This document shows positions 7,209-12,077 of a stretch of DNA of 64,000 nucleotides, piece after piece. The stretch is from positions 62,001 through 126,000 of the forward strand of contig NZ_JABAIM010000002.1 in assembly GCF_012641365.1 (NCBI RefSeq), given 5' to 3'. A program made the position numbers and the translations under genes. Positions within the stretch are counted from its first letter, which is position 1. Each line of letters begins with the position of its first letter. The stretch comes from Leeia aquatica (lineage in GTDB: Bacteria > Pseudomonadota > Gammaproteobacteria > Burkholderiales > Leeiaceae). Below the pieces are notes generated by a model, which made no database searches, had not been told where the DNA came from, and saw only the letters and a list, made by a program, of their open reading frames with translations.

Positions 7209-9089
7209 ATGTCTCACCATCCGAACCAGTTTGACCTGTTTCGTACCCGCCGCTTCCTGCCCTTGTTTTTGACCCAGTTTCTGGGGGCCTTCAATGATAA
7301 TCTGCTGAAGAACGCCATCATCGTTCTGATCAGTTTTCACGGCTTGCGGCTGAGCGGACTCTCCGGAGAGGTACTGATCCAGCTGACCGCTGCGCTGTTC
7401 ATCCTGCCTTTTCTGCTGTTCTCGGCGACCAGCGGCCAAATCTGCGAGAAGTACGACAAAGCCAGCATCGCCCGCATGGTCAAGCTGCTGGAAGTGTTGA
7501 TCATGCTGGTGGCCGCTGCCGGGTTCTGGCTGAACAACGGCTATATCCTGATGAGCACCATTTTCCTGATGGGGGTTCATTCGACCCTGTTTGGACCGCT
7601 CAAGTTCAGCGTGCTGCCGCAGTACCTACGCCCGCATGAGCTGGTGGGTGGTAACGGCATGATCGAGATGGGTACCTTCATTTCCATCATCCTCGGCCAG
7701 GTGGCGGGTACCTTGCTGGTGGGCATGGACAGCCACCACGCCACCCTGATCTCCGCGCTGCTGCTGTGTGCAGTGCTGGGCTACCTCAGTTCACGCGCCA
7801 TGCCCGCGGCACCCAGTAGCGTGCCAGAACTGAAGATAGACTGGAACATGGCCCGGCAGAGCTGGCAGATCGTCAACCACCTGCGCGGCAATCGCCCGGT
7901 CTGGCTCGCCTTGCTGGGCATCTCCTGGTTCTGGTTCCTGGGCGCCATCTACTTGTCCAAGCTTCCCTCCTATGCCGATCTGGTGCTCAATGGCGACGAG
8001 ACGGTCTTCACCCTGCTGATGACGCTGTTTTCAGTCGGGCTGGGTATAGGCTCCATGTTGTGCGAGCGGCTGTCCGGCAGCAAGGTGGAGCTGGGTCTGG
8101 TGCCGTTTGGCTCACTGGGCTTGTGCCTGTTCGGCATTGACCTGTATTTTGCCACTCCGGCAATGGCCGCCAGCCGTCTGGATTGGTGGCAGTTCGTGCA
8201 CCATGCCAGCCATTGGCGTTTGATGGCGGACTTTGCCTTGATCGGCATCTTCGGCGGGCTGTACATCGTTCCGCTGTATGCGCTGGCGCAGTCTCGCACC
8301 GAACCAGAATTCCGCTCTCGAGCGATTGCGGCCAACAACATTCTCAATTCGCTGTTCATGATCCTCTCGGCGGCCTTTGCTGCCGTGCTGGCACATTTTC
8401 ATGTCAGCATCCCGGTGGTGCTGCTGATCACCGCCCTGCTCAATCTGGTGGTGGCCGCCTATATCTACACCTTGCTACCGGAATTCCTGATGCGGTTTGT
8501 GGTGTGGATTCTCACTCACACCATGTACCGTATCCGTCATGAAGGTCTGGAGCAGATTCCGGAAGAAGGCCCGTGCGTGCTGGTGTGTAACCATGTCAGC
8601 TTCATGGATGCGCTGATTCTGGCCGGCAGCGTGCGCCGCCCGATCCGTTTTGTGATGGACCACAATATCTTCAAGGTGCCGGTCCTGCGCTTCGTGTTCA
8701 AGACCGCCAAAGCCATCCCGATCGCCCCGGCCAAGGAAGACCCGGATGCCAAGCAGCGAGCCTTTGATGCGGTGGCTGCCGCCCTGGCCGAAGGGGAAGT
8801 GGTCTGCATTTTTCCGGAAGGCCGCCTGACCAGCGATGGGCAGATGTCGCCGTTCCGCACCGGCATTGAAGAAATTATTGCCCGCACCCCGGTGCCGGTG
8901 GTGCCGATGGCATTGTGCGGCATGTGGGGCAGCTTCTTCTCGCGTCGCTATGGCAAGGCCATGTTGAGCATTCCGCGCCGGGTCTGGTTCCGTATCGCCC
9001 TCAAGGCGGCAGCTCCGGTGCCCCCAGCCGAAGTCAGCGCGGCGGGCTTGCAGCAACAAGTGGCCGCCCTGCGTGGTGACTGGCAATAG
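7209..9089 (+). CDS. LplT-like MFS transporter fused to PlsC-type acyltransferase
   Basis: A 626-residue two-part protein. Residues 1 to about 415 form an MFS module with about 12 membrane segments, opening with LFLTQFLGAFNDNLLKNA, the LplT-like lysophospholipid flippase signature. Residues about 430-626 are a glycerolipid acyltransferase, with NHVSFMD (His462, Asp467) and the phosphate-binding PEGRLTSDG (Glu537). The pair resembles the LplT-Aas pathway that flips lysophospholipids inward and reacylates them, but the AMP-binding acyl-ACP synthetase domain of Aas is absent. The start at 7209 is preceded by GGAG. It overlaps the next gene by 17 bases, so the two are probably coupled. Confidence 0.92.
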   Translation: MSHHPNQFDLFRTRRFLPLFLTQFLGAFNDNLLKNAIIVLISFHGLRLSGLSGEVLIQLTAALFILPFLLFSATSGQICEKYDKASIARMVKLLEVLIMLVAAAGFWLNNGYILMSTIFLMGVHSTLFGPLKFSVLPQYLRPHELVGGNGMIEMGTFISIILGQVAGTLLVGMDSHHATLISALLLCAVLGYLSSRAMPAAPSSVPELKIDWNMARQSWQIVNHLRGNRPVWLALLGISWFWFLGAIYLSKLPSYADLVLNGDETVFTLLMTLFSVGLGIGSMLCERLSGSKVELGLVPFGSLGLCLFGIDLYFATPAMAASRLDWWQFVHHASHWRLMADFALIGIFGGLYIVPLYALAQSRTEPEFRSRAIAANNILNSLFMILSAAFAAVLAHFHVSIPVVLLITALLNLVVAAYIYTLLPEFLMRFVVWILTHTMYRIRHEGLEQIPEEGPCVLVCNHVSFMDALILAGSVRRPIRFVMDHNIFKVPVLRFVFKTAKAIPIAPAKEDPDAKQRAFDAVAAALAEGEVVCIFPEGRLTSDGQMSPFRTGIEEIIARTPVPVVPMALCGMWGSFFSRRYGKAMLSIPRRVWFRIALKAAAPVPPAEVSAAGLQQQVAALRGDWQ

Positions 9090-10101
9090 GCTGACCGCCA
9101 GCGCCAGCGGGCTGTTCCTGCACGCGCTGCACAACTGGCTCCAACCCGGCAGCGCCCCTGCCGAGTGGCGTAACTCGCGTAGTCGGGTACCGTTTGCTCA
9201 AGTGGTAGACGGCTTTGCTCGCGCTGCCGACACCCGGCTGGATGTCGGCCTGCGCTTTGCCGAGCACATCAAACCCGGTGCGTTCGGTGCGCTCGGTTAC
9301 GCTGCCATGACCTGCCGCACCCTGGGGGATGTCCTACCGCTGATCCCGCGCTATGGCAAGCTGGTGTTTGACTTCGGCCAGCCCATTGAGCTGATCCAGC
9401 AGCAAGCCGATGACGTCACCCTGCTGTGGGCGCCAGAGCAGGTTGCGCCAGACCTGCCTTGGTCTACGGATCATCCTGGCTTCAGGGCCGTAACGGACAG
9501 CATCATTGGCGGCTGGTACCGTTTCGGCTGCTGGATTACCCAGCAATGCAAGCCTCCCAGCCGGGTCACCTTGCGAGCCACTGCCCCGGCAAACCCGCAG
9601 CCGTGGCATGACTTCTTCGGCATCCCGGTTGAGTTTGCAGCCCCCTGCAACAGCCTGAGTTTTCCACGCAGCTACCTTGAGCTGCCACTGGCACAGGCCG
9701 ACAGCGTGCTGCACCAGACACTGCAGCAGCAGGCTGAAGCCTTGCTGCAAGACCTGAACAAGCCCGACCTCGCCCGACAGGTGCAGCATGCCCTGTTGCA
9801 CTGCCTGCCCTTGGGTGAAGCCACGCTGGCTGAGGTCGCCCGCCAACTGGCCACCACCGAGCGTACCTTGCAACGGCGGCTGGCCGAGCAGATGCTGGGC
9901 TTTCAGACCCTGCTCAGCCAGACCCGCTACCAACTGGCACGGCAGCACCTGGCCAACCCGGCACTCAGTGTGCTGGACATCGCCTTGCTGCTGGGCTATG
10001 CCGAGCAAAGCGCCTTCAGCAAAGCCTTCCGCCTGTGGTCGGGCCTCTCCCCTGCGCAGTATCGCCATTCCCTAGCCGCTACGCCAACGCATTTGGCGTG
10101 A
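9073..10101 (+). CDS. AraC-family transcriptional regulator
   Basis: A 342-residue regulator with an Arabinose_bd-type sensor (about 20-200) and two C-terminal helix-turn-helix motifs of the AraC type. These include LAEVARQLATTERTLQRRL, then LDIALLLGYAEQSAFSKAF and a terminal GLSPAQYR. It starts at GTG 9073 (or the adjacent GTG at 9076), inside the end of the transporter-acyltransferase gene. Homologues with this sensor include OruR/ArgR-type and other metabolite-responsive activators. Its position inside the lipid cluster suggests it controls one or both flanking transcripts; the ligand is unknown. Confidence 0.85.
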   Translation: MVTGNRLTASASGLFLHALHNWLQPGSAPAEWRNSRSRVPFAQVVDGFARAADTRLDVGLRFAEHIKPGAFGALGYAAMTCRTLGDVLPLIPRYGKLVFDFGQPIELIQQQADDVTLLWAPEQVAPDLPWSTDHPGFRAVTDSIIGGWYRFGCWITQQCKPPSRVTLRATAPANPQPWHDFFGIPVEFAAPCNSLSFPRSYLELPLAQADSVLHQTLQQQAEALLQDLNKPDLARQVQHALLHCLPLGEATLAEVARQLATTERTLQRRLAEQMLGFQTLLSQTRYQLARQHLANPALSVLDIALLLGYAEQSAFSKAFRLWSGLSPAQYRHSLAATPTHLA

Positions 10102-10186
10102 ATTGCCAAGCAGCTGGCAGCAATTCACGATGCAATGCCACGCCATCCGCTTACACTGAGGGCTGTCTTCCTGCTGAAGTCGCCTC

Positions 10187-10858
10187 ATGCGCACACCTTC
10201 CCGCTTGGCCCCGTGGCACGTTGCCTCCCTGCTGCTCGCTACCCTGTTCTGGGTCAGCCATGCCCTGCCGCCGTCGGTCTGGACGCTAGCCGCCAAAACC
10301 GGTGCCATCCTCGCGCTGGCGGCTTGGTGCTGGCCCCATACGCAGGGACTGAGCCGACTGATCCCGCTCGCCTTGCTGGCCCATGCGACCGGCGATGCCC
10401 TGCTGGAATGGGCCAGAGTGCAGCAGCAGGACTGGTTGATTCCCGCTGTCGCGGCTTTTCTGGTCGGCCATCTGATCAACCTGCGCCTTTTCTGTGCCTG
10501 GCGTCAGCCACGCTGGCTCAGCCCGGTTCTGGCCGGGTTTACCCTGTTGCTGGCCTTGCTGGCGGGAATCCTGGTGCTGCGCGGCTTATGGCTGAGCCAG
10601 CCTGCGCTGCTGCGCGTGATCGTACCGATCTATATGTCGGTGCTGCTGGCGATGGCGCTGATGGCCCAGCGTACGGGCAACGTCACCATTGCACTGGGCG
10701 CGCTGAGCTATCTGGTATCGGACGCCCTGATTGGGCTGACGCATTTTGCAGGCTGGTTTCCGGGCTTTGAAAGCGGCTGGCTGACCTGGCCCAGCTACTA
10801 CATCGGCCAATGGGCACTGGTGACCGGTTTACTGCACGTACTGCGAAAGCAAGATTGA
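10187..10858 (+). CDS. YhhN/TMEM86-family lysoplasmalogenase
   Basis: A 223-residue integral membrane protein with about seven or eight hydrophobic segments. It bears the YhhN signatures: LLAHATGDALLEW with a conserved Asp, and SYLVSDALIGL with a second Asp near the end. Characterised YhhN/TMEM86 proteins hydrolyse the vinyl-ether bond of lysoplasmalogen to release a fatty aldehyde. A different frame (10135-10770) also reads open but has no family signature. The stop TGA is followed after one base by the ATG of the next gene, so the two are almost certainly co-translated. A lipid ether or vinyl-ether substrate is inferred. Confidence 0.85.
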   Translation: MRTPSRLAPWHVASLLLATLFWVSHALPPSVWTLAAKTGAILALAAWCWPHTQGLSRLIPLALLAHATGDALLEWARVQQQDWLIPAVAAFLVGHLINLRLFCAWRQPRWLSPVLAGFTLLLALLAGILVLRGLWLSQPALLRVIVPIYMSVLLAMALMAQRTGNVTIALGALSYLVSDALIGLTHFAGWFPGFESGWLTWPSYYIGQWALVTGLLHVLRKQD

Positions 10859-10859
10859 G

Positions 10860-12077
10860 ATGGATACCCGTTTGATTGCGCTGGCCGCGCCACTCTTCGT
10901 GTTGCTGATGTTACTGGAAGCCTGGCTGAGCCATCGCCGTGGACAGCAGGTGTATCGCAGTCACGATGCCATCAGCAGCATCAGCCTGGGCTTGCTGTCG
11001 GTCATTGCCAATGTGCTGACCGCGAGCCTGGGCCTGGCCGCTTACCAGTGGGTCAGCCAGCTCGCCCCGCTACACTTGCCCGCCAGCGCAGCGTGGGTAT
11101 GGCTGCTGGCATTTGTGCTGTTCGACTTCTGCTACTACTGGCACCACCGGCTGGGGCATACCATTGCCCTGCTGTGGGCGGCCCACAGCGTGCATCATCA
11201 GAGTGAAGACTACAATCTCTCCACGGCGCTACGCCAACCCAGTACCACCTTCCTGTTTGGCTGGCTGTTTTATCTGCCGATGGCGCTGCTGGGCATTCCG
11301 GTGGCGCTGTATGGCGCGGTCTACTCGTTGAACCTGCTGTATCAGTTCTGGATTCATACCGAGCTGGTGGGGCGTTTGGGCTGGCTCGACCGGGTGTTTG
11401 GCTCACCCAGCAATCATCGTGTGCATCATGGTCAGAATGCCTATTGTCTCGACCGTAACTATGGCGGCTTCCTCATGCTGTGGGACCACCTGTTTGGTAC
11501 TTATGTGGACGAACGGGCAGACGAAGCACCGATCTACGGGGTGCGTGGTGCATTGCATAGCTGGCACCCTCTGGTTGCCAACCTCAAGGTCTATCTGGGC
11601 CTGCTGCGGACTTCCTTATCACTGACACGCTGGCGGGACAAATTGCAGGTCTGGCTGCGCCCGCCAGGCTGGACGCCGCAAGGCATTGACCTTAGCTGGG
11701 ACCCGACAGCATTCCGCAAACATGACCCTGTCTTGCCCGGTGCCTGGCAAGCCTATGCCTGGGCTCAGTTCGGTCTGTGCTATCTGTCCGGCCTGCTCTG
11801 GCTGGTGCGATGGCCGGGGCTGGGCAACCCTGTGGGTACCGGGGTCCTGGTGGCTGTGCTGCTGGGGGTGCTGAGCCTGGGGTTCTGGTTAAGCCAGCAC
11901 ACATGGGCCCACCGGCTGGAAGCCGGGCGTTTGCTGCTGACGGCCGGGATGGCCTGGTTTACCCCTCCCCCGGTGCGGTGGGGTGTATTGGCACTGCTTG
12001 GCCTGCAAGGTCTGTGGTTGCTGCGCATTTCTGCACGTTCCTCAGCAGCAGGGCAAACCCTTAGTGCAAATGGCTAG
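10860..12077 (+). CDS. sterol desaturase/fatty acid hydroxylase family, alkylglycerol-monooxygenase-like
   Basis: A 405-residue membrane di-iron oxygenase. Histidine clusters appear as HHRLGH at 95-100, HSVHH at 109-113 and NHRVHHG further on. The stretch SEDYNLSTALRQ directly after the second cluster is characteristic of alkylglycerol monooxygenase (AGMO/TMEM195) rather than generic sterol desaturases. Six or more membrane segments flank the core, with an extra hydrophobic C-terminal block. AGMO cleaves the ether bond of alkylglycerols using tetrahydropterin and oxygen. It is translationally coupled to the lysoplasmalogenase gene, giving a plausible ether-lipid catabolic pair. Its last 17 bases overlap the convergent gene downstream. 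Confidence 0.85.
   Translation: MDTRLIALAAPLFVLLMLLEAWLSHRRGQQVYRSHDAISSISLGLLSVIANVLTASLGLAAYQWVSQLAPLHLPASAAWVWLLAFVLFDFCYYWHHRLGHTIALLWAAHSVHHQSEDYNLSTALRQPSTTFLFGWLFYLPMALLGIPVALYGAVYSLNLLYQFWIHTELVGRLGWLDRVFGSPSNHRVHHGQNAYCLDRNYGGFLMLWDHLFGTYVDERADEAPIYGVRGALHSWHPLVANLKVYLGLLRTSLSLTRWRDKLQVWLRPPGWTPQGIDLSWDPTAFRKHDPVLPGAWQAYAWAQFGLCYLSGLLWLVRWPGLGNPVGTGVLVAVLLGVLSLGFWLSQHTWAHRLEAGRLLLTAGMAWFTPPPVRWGVLALLGLQGLWLLRISARSSAAGQTLSANG

Follow-up and report, generated by a model that had tools for sequence, protein, structure and literature searches.

The closest described relatives of the two proteins considered here are animal AGMO (TMEM195; EC 1.14.16.5) and the lysoplasmalogenases of the YhhN family, among them TMEM86A, TMEM86B and the bacterial YhhN proteins of Legionella pneumophila and Mycobacterium tuberculosis. 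A 2013 review of AGMO places the gene in animals, does not use the word 'bacterial' in the part of its text available to us, and states that the protein could not be purified (PMC3617469). The M. tuberculosis YhhN protein is reported to be specific for lysoplasmalogens and to protect against toxic host lysolipids, and Legionella YhhN is reported to have lysoplasmalogenase activity; many microorganisms that carry YhhN encode no plasmalogen synthesis, and whether the family targets host lysoplasmalogens or other molecules was raised as a question (PMC9052158). Here we describe a stretch of 64,000 nucleotides from Leeia aquatica (contig NZ_JABAIM010000002.1, positions 62,001 to 126,000 of the forward strand; hereafter the window), in which a YhhN gene and a gene for an AGMO-like hydroxylase lie one base apart. 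We propose, with a rough probability of 0.62, that the two proteins form an ether-lipid cleavage unit that would release fatty aldehydes from lyso alkyl- and alkenyl-ether lipids. This proposal is based on family chemistry, which published work has established for animal AGMO and for animal and two bacterial YhhN proteins, on the retention of catalytic residues and on gene linkage, from which we infer the substrates, the cofactor, the direction of flux and the regulation. A literature search by title and the beginning of the abstract, with subscription papers and preprints outside its scope, found no description of a bacterial AGMO-YhhN pair.

An earlier, sequence-only reading of this DNA had proposed a cluster of four genes lying head to tail with overlaps or near-overlaps, and all four are found on the plus strand at the positions that it gave. 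The third gene encodes a YhhN/lysoplasmalogenase-family membrane protein of 223 residues (positions 10187-10858; PF07947, 93.9 bits against a cut-off of 25.6), and the fourth encodes an AGMO-like FA_hydroxylase of 405 residues (10860-12077; FA_hydroxylase, 103.4 bits against a cut-off of 31). Exactly one base separates the YhhN stop codon from the hydroxylase ATG, as had been described. The close spacing also holds for the first and second genes, which overlap by 17 nucleotides (9073-9089), but it does not hold for the second and third, between which there is a gap of 85 bp. The core unit is the pair of YhhN and the AGMO-like hydroxylase, not the four-gene cluster.

We compared the window hydroxylase to human AGMO using a human sequence that places all 16 published residues correctly and has the reported length of 445 residues. 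The two proteins are 36% identical over 360 residues (223 bits), and the match covers AGMO residues 43-399. The other members of an alignment of six hydroxylase relatives (A1) score 196-265 bits against human AGMO, the best named relative scores 271 bits, and three short AGMO-like forms score 155-191 bits. Eleven other bacterial FA_hydroxylases reach only 56-85 bits and one control gives no match, which upholds the assignment of the window protein as AGMO-like within a set that held no characterised sterol or carotenoid enzyme.

The residues reported to be essential for AGMO catalysis are, in human numbering, nine histidines together with Q162, D233, N235, Y236, W243 and D244 (PMC3617469, PMC7911779). 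We surveyed these positions in the window protein, in 80 named relatives and in 15 control FA_hydroxylases, the latter being further matches of the window protein (L006-L020). All nine histidines, that is, the eight-histidine FA_hydroxylase motif and the ninth histidine, are present in the window hydroxylase and in 80 of 80 relatives; the set is common to most of the controls and is therefore not specific to AGMO. The six further residues are likewise all kept in the window protein (Q126, D198, N200, Y201, W208 and D209). Equivalents of Q162, D233, N235, W243 and D244 occur in all 80 relatives and that of Tyr236 in 77; D233 is replaced by Asn in one of the six A1 sequences, which is not that of the window. 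Q162 is a better discriminator than the pterin contact Glu137 discussed below, being found in 80/80 relatives versus 3/15 controls, two of which are short AGMO-like forms. Animal AGMO and the window hydroxylase thus share the FA_hydroxylase family, the nine histidines and the Q/D/N/Y/W/D set at matching places, and their likeness extends into the C-terminal membrane part. They differ in that the window protein is bacterial, has Thr in place of Glu137, and has a good part of its relatives paired with or fused to YhhN. AlphaFold2 predicts the structure of the window hydroxylase with good confidence (pLDDT 87.8, pTM 0.85). A Foldseek search of the PDB with this model gave no match at E ≤ 0.001, and sequence searches of the PDB with P0004 and P0003 yielded nothing usable: the best match of P0004 (E 0.047) is unrelated, and P0003 has none.

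The sole NCBIfam match of the window hydroxylase is OlsE (NF052566), which belongs to the same Pfam superfamily; its score of 69.9 bits lies below the cut-off of 475, and the protein does not qualify as a member of OlsE. This match nevertheless bears on a different view of the pair, in which the hydroxylase modifies lipids of the cell's own membrane, such as the ornithine lipids on which OlsE acts, and YhhN removes the lysolipids that arise, the two together acting as a membrane-stress device. Such a role would accord with the reported protection by M. tuberculosis YhhN against toxic host lysolipids and with two genomes in which YhhN directly follows an LplT-like transporter gene and no hydroxylase lies in the 1.5-kb flanks. 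We regard it as rather unlikely, because the OlsE cut-off is missed while human AGMO gives 223 bits over 360 residues, and because the M. tuberculosis enzyme is lysoplasmalogen-specific and its Legionella counterpart is active as a lysoplasmalogenase (PMC9052158).

For TMEM86A, eight catalytic residues have been proposed (K43, G81, D82, H104, G182, S189, D190 and Y213), one of which, G81, was found to be dispensable (PMC11994398). The window YhhN keeps all eight, as K37, G69, D70, H95, G171, S178, D179 and Y204. It has PF07947 and the full set of eight residues in common with TMEM86A/B and with the L. pneumophila and M. tuberculosis lysoplasmalogenases. Among 35 YhhN sequences that are linked to a hydroxylase or lie near one, the Lys is present in 33, the first Asp in 34, the second Asp in 35, the Ser in 34 and the His in 32. 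The window-type gene differs from the studied bacterial YhhN genes in being coupled or fused to an AGMO-like enzyme; no such partner is mentioned for the latter in the parts of the reports available to us.

To compare the neighbourhoods of such pairs, named genomes were scanned with A1, which gave at least 590 candidate stretches, 582 of them relatives. The best 80 were kept and searched with profiles in all reading frames over flanks of up to 8 kb, some of the contigs being short. The query held two YhhN-linked members (the window and genome G386), and the share of linked loci among the 80 is not unbiased. YhhN is fused in frame to the hydroxylase in 15 of the 80 loci (Hydrogenophaga, Variovorax, Rhodoferax, Acidovorax and two less exactly named MAGs), and it lies immediately upstream on the same strand in eight (Dyella, Oleiagrimonas and Undibacterium), several of which show ATGA stop-start overlaps. 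One further locus has YhhN nearby on the other strand, and in 56 of the 80 YhhN was not found within the available flanks. Linkage of the two is recurrent, and its arrangement varies: YhhN may be upstream, downstream, fused C-terminally, or placed together with an AraC gene facing the hydroxylase. The fusions were aligned, and both domains of one (L160) were confirmed by Pfam. An AlphaFold2 model of a fusion was not used, because pLDDT falls below 50 at residues 119-136 and 170-233, which form part of the active site of the hydroxylase. At the fusion junctions of L154, L145 and L169, the hydroxylase and YhhN profiles overlap by approximately 10 to 33 residues; because of this overlap, a single membrane helix may serve both halves.

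The association was also measured in 398 genomes sampled evenly from the phylum, that of the window included, with the AGMO-like hydroxylase called at E ≤ 1e-60. It is present in 102 of these genomes. A long form, scoring at least 390 bits across some 370 positions, occurs in 31 of them, and the other 71 have a shorter form alone; YhhN exceeds its cut-off in 105 of the 398. YhhN was found in 23/31 long-form genomes versus 82/367 others (Fisher 8e-9) and in 72/102 genomes with either hydroxylase form versus 33/296 without (Fisher 1.6e-29), both tests ignoring kinship. Counted by genus, the figures are 45/63 versus 18/149 (Fisher 3e-17, ignoring kinship beyond the genus). Thirty long-form loci, read together with flanks of at most 1.5 kb, comprise five fusions, three clusters of AraC and YhhN (the window, G386 and G368) and 22 loci without YhhN; for five other long-form matches, the YhhN of the same genome lies on a different contig or at least 30 kb away. 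Both genes are linked in 8 of the 23 long-form genomes that have YhhN (7 of 22 without the window), against approximately 0.02 (0.023) expected under a rough random-placement model. The pairing of YhhN with the hydroxylase exceeds chance. A second sample, of 399 genomes of the order, added a YhhN upstream of the hydroxylase (G695), one downstream (G642) and a diverged fusion (G738).

The repeated adjacency and fusion of YhhN and the hydroxylase are most simply read as a joint role in breaking down ether lipids. In the proposed mechanism, the AGMO-like di-iron enzyme would hydroxylate 1-O-alkyl-glycerols or lyso-alkyl-phospholipids at carbon 1 of their alkyl chain, with O2 and probably a reduced pterin, and the hemiacetal would decay, releasing a fatty aldehyde together with glycerol or a glycerophospho-alcohol. 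Products of the same kinds would arise from lysoplasmalogens through hydrolysis of their vinyl ether by YhhN, so that the pair would clear both kinds of lyso-ether lipid. To our knowledge, the sn-1 ether bond of these lipids is not cut by ordinary esterase-type lipases. The aldehyde would then be oxidized by an aldehyde dehydrogenase, which two relatives encode just downstream. In G738, the dehydrogenase gene starts 6 bp after the hydroxylase-YhhN fusion, and in the PDB its product matches 6k0z ('Aldehyde dehydrogenase', 409 bits) best and 4qgk ('Fatty aldehyde dehydrogenase', 355 bits) second best, ahead of dimeric NADP-preferring and class 3 enzymes. In G446, the hydroxylase gene is followed by one for a 197-residue membrane protein (L225, 845-1438, minus strand; ATGA overlap, no Pfam match), possibly another type of partner, and then by an aldehyde dehydrogenase gene. 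These neighbours fit the proposal because both of the proposed reactions yield a fatty aldehyde. When the collected loci were searched with the single sequence of the G738 enzyme, the other matches were more distant relatives, including one at 2-3 kb from the hydroxylase in each of G058 and G010 and one at about 5 kb in L119. The aldehyde dehydrogenase context is thus suggestive and not general. Near three hydroxylase genes (L090, L093 and L101), an open reading frame resembling glycerophosphodiester phosphodiesterase by eye lies within 5 kb; such an enzyme would process the head-group product.

Because vinyl-ether hydrolysis and AGMO hydroxylation share one hemiacetal, a 1-hydroxyalkyl glycerol, a relay between the two sites is conceivable. 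The fused protein would then be one enzyme with two coupled active sites, whose YhhN half would also collapse the hemiacetal made by the hydroxylase and so channel both classes of ether lipid to fatty aldehyde within one membrane protein. We consider this a speculative and improbable extension; if true, it would mean that bacteria break down ether lipids aerobically with the same two enzyme families as animals. As to the cleavage unit itself, its recurrent fusion would tie the orphan YhhN to the breakdown of the whole class of lyso-ether lipids, make the role of YhhN in bacteria without plasmalogens directly testable, and point to a largely unstudied bacterial route for dismantling lipids that are hard to digest. 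The bacterial AGMO relatives, some of them single-chain fusions, may also offer a protein that can be expressed and solved.

Several observations weigh against assigning ether-lipid cleavage to the pair. YhhN is neither adjacent nor fused in 57 of the 80 named hydroxylase loci, 33 of the 105 YhhN genomes in the phylum sample have no AGMO-like hydroxylase, and of 26 YhhN loci obtained in a single-protein search that missed fused forms, only the window and one other have any part of such a hydroxylase in their 1.5-kb flanks. The fusion with the best operon context, that of G738 (L237, 6591-8327, minus strand), has a YhhN half that keeps four of the eight residues, lacking the Lys, one Asp, the His and the Ser; this half may be inactive, although an aldehyde dehydrogenase gene directly follows. 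In NCBIfam, that dehydrogenase matches benzaldehyde dehydrogenase best, at a score below the cut-off (370 versus 550 bits). Of 14 genomes that have an AGMO-like hydroxylase and were searched for a pterin-dependent amino-acid hydroxylase, 13 contain one, which suggests that a pterin cofactor is available; this result does not discriminate, because both same-genus genomes that lack the pair have such an enzyme as well. A search for plasmalogen synthesis by PF10520 gave 0 matches in 16, but the positive controls of that search were equally unmatched.

The remaining counterevidence concerns the hydroxylase of the window. Its Thr101 takes the place of the pterin-binding Glu137 of AGMO, and the Pfam domain for the AGMO C-terminus, PF24858, is unmatched in it even at E 0.1. 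Both features would accord with a view in which YhhN alone is active and detoxifies lysoplasmalogens from hosts or the environment, the hydroxylase, or at any rate its Thr101 form, having drifted in substrate or become pterin-free. We judge this quite improbable: the window hydroxylase keeps every residue reported to be essential for AGMO catalysis, and the Glu is kept in 11 of the 15 fused relatives. Overall, Glu occupies this position in 69/80 relatives and in 7 of the 8 adjacent cases. The tetrahydrobiopterin contact Glu137 was described in the AGMO review as absent from all other FA_hydroxylases (PMC3617469). Despite this claim it is only a weak marker, because 5 of our 15 control bacterial FA_hydroxylases carry Glu there. 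PF24858 is matched by 11 of 30 relatives (best E 1.1e-7), and in two YhhN-linked relatives it scores 24.2 and 24.0 bits against a cut-off of 28.3.

The first gene of the cluster (7209-9089, plus strand) encodes a protein of 626 residues that joins an LplT-like MFS transporter to a PlsC-type acyltransferase (Pfam MFS_1, 68.5 bits; Acyltransferase, 101.2 bits). The known LplT-Aas system for lysolipid flipping and re-acylation likewise has an LplT-like MFS domain and a PlsC-type acyltransferase in one chain, but the window protein has no acyl-ACP synthetase domain: it matches the full-length LplT-Aas model (NF005291) with 552 bits, below the cut-off of 1349, and only over positions 3-598 of 1140. 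The sequence-only reading had proposed that the four genes are one operon for ether-lipid uptake, cleavage and re-acylation, which would agree with the 17-nucleotide overlap of the first two genes and with the LplT-like gene directly before YhhN in G354 and G377. Three results make this very unlikely: neither the 80 named loci nor six additional regions have an LplT/PlsC homologue near the hydroxylase, the 60% identical LplT-PlsC relative in G022 lies on a different contig from that genome's hydroxylase, and the second and third genes are separated by the 85-bp gap. The 1.5-kb flanks of the sampled loci are too short to show such a partner. With no second case beside a hydroxylase, LplT-PlsC was rejected as a partner of the pair, and the claim of reacylation by this protein was not borne out. 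In G354 and G377, two genomes of one family, the LplT-like MFS gene and YhhN (L071, 6468-8562; L072, 6675-8809) are followed by an argB-like gene, identified by eye, and a hydroxylase was not found within the 1.5-kb flanks. This order suggests that YhhN has another setting, in the handling of lysophospholipids.

The second gene (9073-10101, plus strand) encodes an AraC-type regulator of 342 residues (Arabinose_bd, 104.6 bits; HTH_18, 62.9 bits), whose GTG start lies inside the preceding gene. Among the six other genomes searched, its best relative is the AraC protein encoded directly upstream of the hydroxylase in G022 (40% identity, 198 bits); the best paralogue within the window's own genome scores 99.9 bits. 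The AraC-hydroxylase order of G022 is also found in G454 and G494, and in G386 and G368 an AraC-YhhN pair lies tail to tail with the hydroxylase, these AraC proteins being approximately 25-27% identical to that of the window. In all, six genomes, the window's included, pair the hydroxylase with an AraC-type regulator, and this recurrence in five other genomes lends support to the claim that the pair has a regulator of its own. The 80 named loci contain one weak AraC match only, about 6 kb from the hydroxylase. The AraC protein probably regulates the YhhN-hydroxylase pair and would act as its switch.

A perfect 10-bp inverted repeat with a 13-nucleotide spacer (10097-10106 and 10120-10129) lies between the AraC and YhhN genes, spanning the AraC stop codon and the start of the 85-bp gap, and is a candidate operator. 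It is the sole perfect copy in the genome; one more site, with 3 mismatches, is at about the level estimated for chance. A role as a conserved operator was rejected, as the repeat occurs in 0 of 5 related intergenic regions, of which L233 has a different perfect 9-bp repeat and L069 has imperfect repeats. A role as an attenuator was also rejected, the RNA fold being ordinary (z 0.05).

We built a tree of 82 hydroxylase rows, comprising 44 of the 80 named loci, 26 sample rows, the six A1 sequences, five other hydroxylases and AGMO, by a quick search with SH-aLRT support. Parsimony counts, which are blind to gain versus loss, give at least 10 changes in YhhN linkage, 3 in fusion and 3 in AraC linkage. 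The long branches (AGMO, the short-subfamily rows and L226) meet in this tree; a 75-row tree without them gives 10, 2 and 3 changes, respectively. The placement of the window hydroxylase, which has a long end branch, is unsure. YhhN was not found in the two other genomes of the window's genus; for the hydroxylase, one of them gave no match and the other nothing closer than a match with 32% identity (E 9.5e-9). The one flanking gene that was compared has a relative in G001 but not in G002, and nine other window genes are unmatched around that relative. The window's genome also contains a second FA_hydroxylase gene (G000:C3:438260-438733), whose product is 37% identical to the window hydroxylase over approximately 155 residues.

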